Part shown: piece by piece, positions 7,902 to 27,802 of the stretch
Numbering within the stretch: position 1 is the first letter of the stretch
Layout of the letters: each line of letters begins with the position of its first letter
Source of the DNA: an uncultured Desulfosoma sp.
GTDB lineage: Bacteria > Desulfobacterota > Syntrophobacteria > Syntrophobacterales > DSM-9756
Direction: 5' to 3'
NCBI GenBank assembly: GCA_937960435.1
Contig: CALGPN010000006.1
Span: forward strand, 1-36,995
Length of the DNA stretch: 36,995 nt
Notes under the pieces: generated by a model
Told to the model about the DNA's origin: nothing
Database searches by the model: none
The model's input: the letters and a program-made list of their open reading frames with translations, nothing else
Translations under genes and position numbers: made by a program

Positions 7902-8165
7902 ATGAAGAAGCACCACCGGGGTGACAATAGGGCGGCACAGGCCTCCGGCATCGCCGATTACCGAGGCGATTGTTGAGCGGGCTTTCTGGACGTAAGTTTA
8001 CGTCTTCGCTTTCTTCGGCCGGGCCAAAGCTTTCGGATTCTTGTCACAGCCGAGCAACGGCCCAAGATGGAACGGGTCGTGGCCCATAACGGAGGCGACG
8101 TGGCCTGCATCCTGGAAACGCAAGACGCCGTGGAAATGCTCATCACGAGGCGGGAAGACAAGTAG
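7902..8165 (+). CDS. TusA-fold selenoprotein with Cys-Sec motif (in-frame UGA)
   Basis: Reading ATG 7902 through an in-frame TGA at 7974-7976 to TAG at 8163-8165 gives 87 residues with Sec25. The protein on both sides of the TGA fits the small TusA/SirA sulfur-carrier fold. D19-Y-R-G-D-C24-U25 stands where TusA has D-x-R-G-x-x-C, and P40-G41 and a FRILVT strand follow. The second helix reads MERVVAHNGGDV, and a last strand contains VEMLITR. Sec25 aligns with the sulfur-carrying cysteine; the CPxP prolines are replaced by Ala-Gly. A SECIS-like hairpin follows the TGA at bacterial spacing, and tRNA-Sec is encoded 18 kb away. ACGGAG about ten bases upstream supports the ATG. The likely role is S/Se transfer or redox chemistry; the partner is unknown. 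The alternative is a tusA-like pseudogene with a nonsense codon. Confidence 0.75.
7988..8005 (+). promoter_or_regulatory. Bacterial SECIS-like hairpin
   Basis: Six Watson-Crick pairs (GACGTA 7989-7994 with TACGTC 7999-8004), extended by a G-U pair (7988/8005), close a four-base loop AGTT with G in the second position. Eighteen bases separate the UGA from the loop, inside the spacing known for bacterial SelB-binding elements. Confidence 0.65.
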
Positions 8166-8193
8166 GTTGGGGTGAGCGCAGCGAACCCCAACA
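8162..8193. repeat. Dispersed palindromic repeat, copy 1
   Basis: A 32-bp element whose core pairs TTGGGGT with ACCCCAA around GAGCGCAGCGA. The same 32 bases recur exactly at 25211 and 25341. Here the first bases of the repeat supply the TAG stop codon of the selenoprotein gene. Confidence 0.85.
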
Positions 8194-8235
8194 CCTTAGG
8201 CCGCGTTCCCCCTGGGTGCCCATGAAAATTTTCTC

Positions 8236-8265
8236 TTGACACAACCGAAAGGGGCTTGCTATTCG
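8236..8265 (+). promoter_or_regulatory. Predicted promoter of the B12-riboswitch transcript
   Basis: TTGACA at 8236-8241 is followed after 18 bases by TATTCG (8260-8265). The expected start near 8272 lies just before the riboswitch P1 stem, which supports the call. Confidence 0.5.
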
Positions 8266-8286
8266 AAATGCACAATTTTCATTGAG

Positions 8287-8448
8287 CGATCAGGTGCTCG
8301 GCGCTTAAAAGGGAATCCCGTGAAAATCGGGAGCGGTCCCGCCGCTGTGAACGGGGACGGCGCTTGCGACAAAACCACTGGCGATGGAGTTTCGCCGGGA
8401 AGGTGCAGGCGTTCGGACGATCCGTGAGCCAGAAGACCTGCCTGATCG
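8287..8448 (+). promoter_or_regulatory. Cobalamin (B12) riboswitch aptamer
   Basis: The conserved core is clear: AAAAGGGAATCCCGTGAAAA, then GCGGTCCCGCCGCTGTGAACGG, and the B12-box segment GCCAGAAGACCTGCC. Stem P1 is an 8-bp perfect pairing of CGATCAGG (8287-8294) with CCTGATCG (8441-8448). In this class cobalamin binding switches off downstream expression, here through the terminator at 8515-8550. Confidence 0.95.
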
Positions 8449-8514
8449 ATGGGAAACGCGGCACGGGTGTATGCCGATACGTTCCCATGGCGAGGACCAA
8501 GCGAAACTGGGTGC

Positions 8515-8970: not shown

Positions 8971-9888
8971 ATGTTCGGTCCGTGTGCGAAAAGTCCAAAG
9001 TTATTTCTGTGCCTCTTCGCTCTCACGGTGGTGCTCTTGGGAGGAATCGGTTTGGAAAAAGCGATGGCGAAGCACGGATCGCCTCATGAGGCGAAGCAGG
9101 CGATCCTGGTTGTGGCGTTTGGAACGAGTGTGCCGGAAGCGAAAAAAGCGTACGATGAAATTGACAAGCGCATCGCGGAAGCTTTTCCCGGCATGGAGCG
9201 ACGCTGGGCGTACACGTCCGGCGTCATCCGGAAGAAACTCCGTTCCCAGGGTATCGTCATCGATTCCCCGGAAGTCGCCCTGGCCAAACTCATGGAGGAC
9301 GGCTTCAGCCATGTGGCGGTCCTCTCCTTGCACGTCATCCCCGGAGCGGAATTCCACGACCTCTATATGAACGCCCGGCTTTTCATGCAGATGTCGGGGG
9401 GATTCAAGAGGGTGACGTTCGCCATGCCGTTGCTTTCCTCCAGCGAAGACATGGCGGATGTGGTGCGCGCTGTGACGGCCGCCGTGCCGAAGGAGCGCCG
9501 TCCTGAAGAGGCGGTGGTCTTAATGGGGCATGGCAGTGAGCACCATCCGGCCGACGCCATCTACACGGCCATGGACGCCCTTTTCCAAAAGCAGGATCGC
9601 ACCATGTTTCTTGCCACCGTGGACGGCTCGCCGCGCTTCGAAGACGTTCTGCCCGTCCTCGAAAGCCGAAAGATCAAGAAAGCCTATCTCATTCCCTTCA
9701 TGCTCGTGGCCGGAGATCATGCCCGTAACGACATGGGAGGAGACGAGCCGGACAGCTGGAAATCCCAGCTCGGTGCCAAGGGGATCGCGGCGATTCCCGT
9801 TTTTCGAGGCCTCGGCGAAATCCCTGAAGTGGTGGATGTGTGGGTCCGTCACTTGCGTTCGGCCGTGGAGGCTTTGGGCACCCCGTAG
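8971..9888 (+). CDS. cbiK: Exported CbiK-type sirohydrochlorin cobaltochelatase
   Basis: A 305-residue class II chelatase that inserts Co2+ into sirohydrochlorin in the anaerobic B12 pathway. The family landmarks are ILVVAFGTSVPEAKKAYDEI, LHVIPGAEFHDL (His121, Glu127), VLMGHGSEHHPAD (His187) and MLVAGDHARNDM (His250). The first about 33 residues form a signal peptide (hydrophobic core LFLCLFALTVVLLGGIG, A-M-A before the mature part). The protein is therefore predicted to be exported, like the periplasmic CbiK described in Desulfovibrio vulgaris, for which a role in haem or metal transport has been discussed. It follows the 81-residue gene in the same B12-riboswitch transcript. Its 3' end overlaps the convergent QueG-like gene by 40 bp. 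Confidence 0.92.
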   Translation: MFGPCAKSPKLFLCLFALTVVLLGGIGLEKAMAKHGSPHEAKQAILVVAFGTSVPEAKKAYDEIDKRIAEAFPGMERRWAYTSGVIRKKLRSQGIVIDSPEVALAKLMEDGFSHVAVLSLHVIPGAEFHDLYMNARLFMQMSGGFKRVTFAMPLLSSSEDMADVVRAVTAAVPKERRPEEAVVLMGHGSEHHPADAIYTAMDALFQKQDRTMFLATVDGSPRFEDVLPVLESRKIKKAYLIPFMLVAGDHARNDMGGDEPDSWKSQLGAKGIAAIPVFRGLGEIPEVVDVWVRHLRSAVEALGTP

Positions 9889-26416: not shown

Positions 26417-26515
26417 TGGCGGAAGTGCATGGGAATCGAACCCACCTGGGACGCCCCTCAGCGCCCCACACCGGATTTGAAGTCCGGGAGCCCCACCAGT
26501 GAGCTTGGCACTTCC
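26417..26515 (-). tRNA. selC: tRNA-Sec(UCA), selC
   Basis: The 99-nt reverse complement has every mark of bacterial tRNA-Sec: an 8-bp acceptor stem (GGAAGTGC with GCACTTCC), anticodon arm CCGGA-CTTCAAA-TCCGG (anticodon TCA), a long variable arm, T arm GGTGGGTTCGATTCCCA, discriminator G and an encoded CCA. It shows that the organism reads UGA as selenocysteine, which supports the UGA-containing gene at 7902. No selA, selB or selD lies in the window. Confidence 0.97.
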
Positions 26516-26626: not shown

Positions 26627-27802
26627 CTAACGGCCCTTTTTCTTTTTCGGGGGCTTGACGGGGATGAGTTCGTAGTCCCGAAAGCCCAGTCCCAGAGATT
26701 CCGCATACTCCAACTGGTGTTCCCACGGGATGTTGGGGTAAACGGCCCGGATTTTGTCCGCAGGCGGCGGGTTCATGGACCCGAGGCAGCTTCCCGCCAA
26801 CACGGGTTGCGCGTTCATGAGATCCACGGAAGCTTGGTCAATGGCCACAGGATCCATGGAAGCCATGATGCCGAGGTCCGCCACGATGGGGGCGTCCGCC
26901 GACCCATGGCAGTCGCAGGCGGGGGAAATCTGCGTGAGAAAGTTGATAAAGAAGCTCTTGTCCTGCTTTCCGTAAAGCGCCCCCACCGTGTATTCCACCA
27001 TCCGCTCCATGAACCCCGCGATGTCCTTATCCCAATTGATATCGATGGCTTCTTCCGGACAGACGTGGATGCATGAGCCGCACCCGACGCACTTGGCGGC
27101 GTCGATCCGTGCGATCTTGGTGATGGAGTCCTTGGGCCGTGCGGCACCTTCGGGCCGCTCCACCAAGGAAAGAGCGTCGTGGGCGCACACTTTGACGCAC
27201 GTCCCGCAGGCGACGCATTTCTTAGCCCGGATCCTAGGTTCCATGACGCTGTGCTGCTGCATTTTGCCGCGTCGGGAGGCGGCGCCCATCCCGACGTTTT
27301 TCATGGCCCCGCCGAAACCGGCGAGTTCGTGTAACTTGAAATGGGCGACAGACACGAGCGCTTCGGCTCGAGCGACGGCCGAGGCAATGAACGTGTCCTG
27401 GCATCGCTTCAAACACACCGGCACGGCGACTTCGTCCTGACCGTCCAGCCCGTCGGCGATGATCACCGGAGCCCCGACCACATCCAACACGAACCCGTTG
27501 CGCACGGCCGTAAGGAGGTGATCCACCGCGTTGCCCCGCGTGCCCACGTAGAGCGTTCCTGCATCGGTGAGGAAAGGGCGCCCTCCGGCTTCCACGATGG
27601 CGTCGATGATGGGGCGCACCAGAAGCGGGCGGATGAAGGCCGTGTTGCCCCGTTCGCCGAAATGGATCTTGACGGCGGTCAAAGCCTTCCGAGGGATGCG
27701 TGCGGGCAGCCCCGCTTCCTTCACCAGCAGACGGATCTTGTCCAAAAGGTTCCAGGTGTCGTCGGCCCGAAGATCGATGAAATAGACGGCGCTTCGCGGC
27801 AT
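26627..27802 (-). CDS. DUF362 protein with two 4Fe-4S ferredoxin motifs
   Basis: A 391-residue protein. The DUF362 region begins KALTAVKIHFGERGNTAFIRP and PFLTDAGTLYVGTRGN, and continues after the clusters with DCHGSADAPIVADLGIMASMDPVAIDQASVDLMN. Between them lie two ferredoxin clusters, CVACGTCVKVC (the Pro after the fourth Cys is missing) and CVGCGSCIHVCP. The C-terminus is a lysine-rich tail. DUF362 Fe-S proteins are frequent in anaerobes; their reaction is not established. No export signal is visible. It is the last gene of the gmhB-pckA-DUF1614-DUF362 cluster, 14 bp after DUF1614, and is followed by selC on the same strand. Confidence 0.88.
   Translation of the reverse strand: MPRSAVYFIDLRADDTWNLLDKIRLLVKEAGLPARIPRKALTAVKIHFGERGNTAFIRPLLVRPIIDAIVEAGGRPFLTDAGTLYVGTRGNAVDHLLTAVRNGFVLDVVGAPVIIADGLDGQDEVAVPVCLKRCQDTFIASAVARAEALVSVAHFKLHELAGFGGAMKNVGMGAASRRGKMQQHSVMEPRIRAKKCVACGTCVKVCAHDALSLVERPEGAARPKDSITKIARIDAAKCVGCGSCIHVCPEEAIDINWDKDIAGFMERMVEYTVGALYGKQDKSFFINFLTQISPACDCHGSADAPIVADLGIMASMDPVAIDQASVDLMNAQPVLAGSCLGSMNPPPADKIRAVYPNIPWEHQLEYAESLGLGFRDYELIPVKPPKKKKGR

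Follow-up and report, generated by a model that had tools for sequence, protein, structure and literature searches.

Does the in-frame TGA of a short open frame in the analysed DNA, a stretch of 36,995 nucleotides from an uncultured Desulfosoma sp. (the window), terminate a gene or encode selenocysteine (Sec), and what would the complete product do? An ordinary gene caller ends the product after 24 residues. With its single TGA read as Sec (U), the frame encodes MKKHHRGDNRAAQASGIADYRGDCUAGFLDVSLRLRFLRPGQSFRILVTAEQRPKMERVVAHNGGDVACILETQDAVEMLITRREDK, which an initial annotation, made without database searches, had taken for a TusA-like selenoprotein. It is here called Sec-TusA, and the features are collected in Table 1. 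An antisense ORF on the opposite strand (7958–8275, −) was rejected, being without conservation.

Table 1. Positions in the window of the Sec-TusA gene, its elements and related features.
Feature	Position	Strand	Remarks
TusA-like selenoprotein gene	7902–8165	+	87 residues with Sec25; stop TAG counted in
ATG, start codon (likely, not proven)	7902	+	GGAG upstream
Cys24 codon	7971–7973	+	Just before Sec; invariant, Cys in 33/33 aligned members
In-frame UGA (Sec25)	7974–7976	+	TGA in 33/33 genes of the alignment and in 77/77 genomes with a match (E ≤ 1e-5)
SECIS hairpin GGACGUAAGUUUACGUCU	7988–8005	+	7-pair stem, loop AGUU, 11 nt after UGA
Stop codon TAG	8163–8165	+	
Cobalamin riboswitch	8275–8459		122 bits; about 110 nt past the Sec-TusA gene
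CbiK	8971–9888		After the riboswitch
selC (tRNA-Sec)	26417–26515	−	ARAGORN; Rfam RF01852, 74.5 bits

Homologues were sought in whole genomes with stop codons read through, all searches being within one phylum. Among the first 40 relatives, 15 genomes (the source genome included) contained a homologue with a single TGA, always at the motif D-Y-[RQ]-x-D-C-U. Profile searches (E ≤ 1e-5) gave matches in 18/56 genomes of the window's class, 31/85 of a second class and 24/46 of a third, and four further genomes (G141, G196, G359 and G381) were found in a phylum-wide sample; in total at least 77 genomes carry Sec-TusA, and every match at this threshold has the TGA. The distribution is patchy among the Sec users of the window's class, in which 52 genomes have selB above the cut-off. 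The Sec region was read directly in 33 loci, in seven more and in 30 of the 33 loci of the last set, which partly overlaps the earlier ones; for the remaining three the motif filter was silent and the TGA was inferred from the TGA count of the search.

Matches without TGA appeared only at weaker E values (above 1e-5), and all that were read proved to be ordinary TusA proteins; L050 and the others either belong to this type, with CP, or were left unread. L016, the sole non-TGA match of the first search (E = 0.003), was lost in the profile search. No Cys form of the family was found among these relatives, Cys occurring only in ordinary, distant TusA. A contig scan for a Cys–Cys form (DCC[AS]G[FY][LQ]D) yielded no relative, plasmids gave no match to Sec-TusA, and in the relatives found the UGA site is never taken by an ordinary stop or disrupted by a frameshift. 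The family is one clade: in a tree of 68 domains the 39 Sec proteins are grouped by one branch (support 100/100), the inner forks being unsure because columns are few and branches long.

Single-base codon differences were counted for 30 genes. The six codons before the TGA gave 1235 synonymous versus 49 non-synonymous differences, and the codons from +11 after the TGA gave 3009 versus 2064; in the two shifted frames downstream of the TGA the counts were 1004 versus 4002 and 706 versus 4330. The counts are pairwise, so the events are not independent. The synonymous excess is present in this frame only, and protein selection acts on the reading frame on both sides of the TGA. The Cys24 codon wobbles between TGC and TGT (20 and 10 of the 30 genes, respectively), whereas TGA is kept as the Sec codon in 30/30.

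In the alignment of 33 genes, 97.9% of the cells at the six core pairs of the hairpin are standard pairs, with compensatory changes at 6/6 pairs. This covariation was reached by 0/500 shuffles and was destroyed when the partner strand was slid by 1–3 columns. RNAalifold returned the same stem, one pair longer than the six-pair core, and all six core pairs were kept in 30/30 held-out genes. A covariance model built from the 33 genes, which takes in the coding flanks as well as the hairpin, recovered the site in seven loci outside its training set (E values of 1e-13 to 3e-7). The hairpin codons GTA, AGT, TTA and CGT are little used for the residues they encode (3.9, 9.8, 2.2 and 9.0%, respectively, based on 15 open frames of the window). 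The folding energy of the hairpin by itself is not unusual (z = 0.40); the evidence for a SECIS element is conservation and covariation, not folding energy. The loop G is invariant; such a loop G and the distance between UGA and hairpin fit the bacterial SECIS rule.

The organism is equipped for Sec decoding, since its genome (G000; 3.0 Mb, 61 contigs) encodes, in addition to selC, selA, two SelB-like elongation factors that both pass the curated cut-off (C23:21227–23125 and C34:5214–7100; L124 and L123) and SelD, which has an in-frame UGA of its own and the active site GAGUASK as read from its sequence. Several relatives from the same family likewise have two selB-like genes per genome. The gene adjoining selC (26627–27802, −) encodes a 391-residue protein with a ferredoxin-like domain, for which none of the listed NCBIfam families was above the cut-off.

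Because TGA-containing homologues occur in 77 genomes, substitution is protein-like on both sides of the codon, the hairpin covaries and selA, selB, selC and selD are all present, we regard the segment at 7902–8165 with high confidence, by comparison, as a genuine selenoprotein gene; translation and selenium in the protein have not been shown. The initial annotation had claimed an ATG frame with a single in-frame TGA, the two halves of which form one small fold, a SECIS-like hairpin at the right distance, selC in the same window and a gene that a standard call would miss, and each of these claims held (for the one fold, by frame, homologues and the AlphaFold model described below). It had envisaged homologues with C–C or C–U at this place, of which the C–U (TGA) form was found in the 77 genomes and a C–C homologue within the family was not. 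It had also stated what would refute the reading, namely a lack of conserved sequence on both sides of the UGA or relatives with ordinary stops or frameshifts there; neither was encountered, both flanks being conserved.

The structure was predicted with AlphaFold from the 33-row alignment (mean pLDDT 87.3, about 95 or more in the core). The predicted order strand–helix–strand–helix–strand–strand (b-a-b-a-b-b) is that of the TusA fold, with disorder before residue 17. The closest solved structure to the model is TsuB/YeeD (8k1r; Z = 10.6, r.m.s.d. 2.3, 74 aligned), followed by E. coli TusA (1dcj; Z = 9.7), a SirA-like protein (3hz7; Z = 9.2) and TusA with IscS (3lvj; Z = 9.1). Alignment with 27 ordinary TusA domains using hhalign covered 70 columns (E = 1.5e-6, probability 90%) and placed Sec on the TusA carrier cysteine, with the first proline of the CPxP motif replaced and the second missing. 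The cut-off of PF01206 was not passed: the full-length window protein gave no match and its core scored 12.5 bits versus 28.6, the best family member reaching E = 1.5e-4 against Pfam TusA. The protein is called TusA-like rather than TusA because the CPxP motif with its carrier cysteine is not met, Sec taking the place of the Cys and neither proline being present. Weak Pfam matches to BRCT_2 (best E = 0.0046) and the sole PDB sequence match, an engineered repeat protein in which no single stretch was significant, were rejected, as neither sensibly spans the family. The proposals that D-Y-R-G-D-C-U sits at the carrier cysteine of TusA, that the fold elements follow in TusA order and that Sec is preceded by Cys without the CPxP prolines were thus upheld, and the suggested comparison of a structure model with TusA gave a confident, although predicted, TusA fold.

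Among known proteins, TusA itself (PF01206; E. coli TusA/YhhP, 1dcj and 3lvj) is alike in fold, length, element order, the D-x-R-G before the active site and the position of the reactive residue; it differs in having Cys at that position without the preceding Cys of Sec-TusA, in its CPxP prolines and in scoring above the Pfam cut-off. The TusA-type domain of YeeD/TsuB, from the thiosulfate uptake pair YeeE–YeeD (8k1r and 8j4c), is the top structural match, but a YeeE-like gene was not recognised beside Sec-TusA in the clusters inspected. YeeD/TsuB is Cys-based. YedF and the SirA-like proteins of selenium clusters (TIGR03527; PMC5322559) share the TusA-type domain and lie in operons with LysR_Se, YedE and SelD, but use Cys with CPxP, and YedF has an additional DsrE-like domain; the YedF architecture is not met by Sec-TusA, which is a single domain. 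Both of these Cys proteins are encoded elsewhere in the window's genome, at L119. The DsrE-like and rhodanese-like selenoproteins listed in PMC13188914 likewise carry Sec within sulfur-transfer folds, but the folds are others and the Sec motifs are UxxC, UxxS, UxxG and CxU. The CU-motif selenoproteins SaoL, SaoC and HgcA have the adjacent Cys–Sec but belong by name to other families, with a mercury or organometal context.

In the window's lineage the Sec-TusA gene stands alone, without an adjoining selenium gene: a DUF4198 protein is encoded divergently upstream, and the cobalamin riboswitch and CbiK lie downstream (Table 1). In another class the gene is directly behind a LysR regulator, the stop codon of which precedes the Sec codon by 26–45 nt in 7/8 loci, so that the two genes abut or overlap. 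All seven of the regulators tested passed the NCBIfam model NF040786 (selenium metabolism-associated LysR, LysR_Sec_metab) with 254.6–273.4 bits versus 250. A homologue of this LysR_Se was present within the 1.5 kb flanks in 18/22 further loci of the LysR-linked class (one of them partial); this count records presence in the flanks, and the arrangement was not checked locus by locus. The linkage was seen in this one class only. In the third class (L080–L082 and L153–L159) speD and speB precede Sec-TusA, an ABC ATPase gene is often among the neighbours, and a dusB-like (tRNA-dihydrouridine synthase) gene lies immediately 3′ of Sec-TusA in 9/10 loci; these names were assigned by reading the sequences. 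In one lineage (L065–L067) a thioredoxin-reductase-like gene is near Sec-TusA.

A separate cluster was observed in the window's own genome (L119; 4933–13815 of contig C12 of G000), with genes for LysR_Se, YedE, a Cys-type TusA, a DUF3343-like protein, a kinase-like protein and SelD, and also znu-like ABC genes, a Fur-like gene and YedF. LysR_Se was identified by model, and the other names rest on sequence reading together with published descriptions. Since a Cys-type TusA is part of this LysR_Se–YedE–TusA–DUF3343–SelD cluster, selenium operons do include proteins with the TusA fold, and a link of SirA-like proteins, YedF and LysR_Se to selenium has been published (PMC5322559). Sec-TusA is an addition and not a replacement, because the genomes keep ordinary or selenium-cluster TusA too.

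As to function, we infer that Sec-TusA most likely carries selenium or sulfur and so serves selenium supply or homeostasis, a proposal to which we would give about even odds. What has been shown (the gene with its UGA and SECIS, the site, the family, the LysR_Se linkage in one class and, as a predicted model, the fold) does not include cargo, donor or acceptor. Selenium supply or homeostasis is favoured on account of the fold, the Sec site and the LysR_Se gene order. In such a mechanism the selenolate of Sec25, where helix 1 begins, would accept selenium or sulfur from a donor, forming an Se–Se or Se–S adduct, and would hand the bound atom on to an acceptor. The adjacent Cys24 would attack the adduct on Sec, releasing selenide or sulfide and leaving a Cys–Sec selenenylsulfide that would be reduced afterwards. 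Selenide or persulfide transfer, or alternatively a Cys–Sec redox pair, had been put forward in the initial annotation, and both remain inference. Against a carrier stand the absence of a selenium neighbour in the window's lineage, the absence of Sec-TusA from some Sec-using relatives and the lack of biochemical or expression data. The tRNA 2-selenouridine synthase (TIGR03167) was found in none of 56 genomes of the window's class, the E. coli control being positive, and 2-selenouridine synthesis is therefore excluded as an outlet in that class. A bolder reading, towards which we lean slightly less than away, is that of a dedicated selenium-transfer protein that would pass selenium via its own Se atom, Sec being backed by the vicinal Cys; it combines the TusA fold, Sec as the carrier residue, the absence of Cys orthologues and co-encoded LysR_Se in one class.

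Four rival explanations were weighed. That the locus is a decayed tusA in which the TGA is a true stop has only the TGA itself in its favour; it is already refuted by the conservation of that codon (77/77 genomes, without another stop or a frameshift at the site), by the synonymous excess flanking it on either side and by the covarying SECIS, and it can be all but dismissed. A thiol/selenol redox relay remains a real possibility. Here Cys24–Sec25 would cycle between the selenolthiol and the selenenylsulfide, passing electrons to or from partners without any selenium or sulfur cargo. The invariance of the Cys–Sec pair, the loss of CPxP (the usual TusA signature), the view that most selenoproteins are redox proteins (PMC13188914) and the thioredoxin-reductase-like neighbour in one lineage speak for it. 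Mammalian thioredoxin reductase uses a vicinal Cys–Sec as its redox pair, a further point in favour of the relay. Against it, the fold is that of carriers and not of thioredoxins, Sec falls exactly on the carrier cysteine and the best genomic context is a selenium regulator.

Binding of a soft metal or metalloid such as mercury or arsenic through Cys–Sec, for handling or detoxification, would suit the small size of the protein and has parallels among CU-motif selenoproteins, several of which are linked to mercury, organometals or metals (HgcA, SaoL, SaoC and MbdU; Table 1 of PMC13188914); no conserved adjoining metal-resistance gene was recognised in the neighbourhoods examined, and we consider this role improbable. 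The same holds for a sensor of selenium status or a partner of LysR_Se, in which Sec-dependent completion of the protein or its loading state would report the selenium supply. The Sec codon makes synthesis dependent on selenium, and the gene abuts or overlaps that of LysR_Se in one class, but this linkage is missing in other lineages and there is no evidence of contact between the two proteins. Of the functional readings, we retain the carrier as the working hypothesis.

A TusA- or SirA-like family is not among the 119 prokaryotic selenoprotein families of a recent compilation (Table 1 of PMC13188914, May 2026), no model of NCBIfam release 20 matches Sec-TusA, and the protein was not found in the literature searched, most subscription literature being outside the search. 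The statement in the initial annotation that selenoproteome surveys had noted Sec in TusA/SirA-like proteins was accordingly not confirmed by that table or by NCBIfam. A Sec-containing 'sulfurtransferase' of unnamed family has been listed in a marine deltaproteobacterium (PMC8318568); as rhodanese-type selenoproteins bear that name, overlap with Sec-TusA is not expected, but it is not excluded. A 2025 method paper (PMC12013277) states that every selenoprotein known so far now seems to have a Cys counterpart, and that selenoproteins lacking one may be discarded by its tool. The lack of a Cys form among the relatives found would explain why Sec-TusA was overlooked in surveys, and it suggests that further such hidden genes exist. 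What form selenium takes in vivo and which donor delivers it to selenophosphate synthetase are incompletely known (PMC13188914), and a conserved small TusA-fold protein with Sec at the carrier site is a concrete, testable candidate for selenium delivery.

Two minor observations concern other TusA relatives. A TusA-domain match of 35 bits (L115; G048:C278:5474–5677, −) has its in-frame TGA elsewhere (LDAUGSPFPSCN) and lacks the carrier cysteine; in this single case the gene may have decayed, or Sec may occupy another site. L160 and L161 (G368 and G024) are TusA relatives with the motif DLRG[IL][CS]CP[ST]NF that adjoin genes read as sulfite/nitrite reductase-like, and L161 has a Cys–Cys pair where the Sec-TusA family has Cys–Sec, possibly a hint at the origin of the family.
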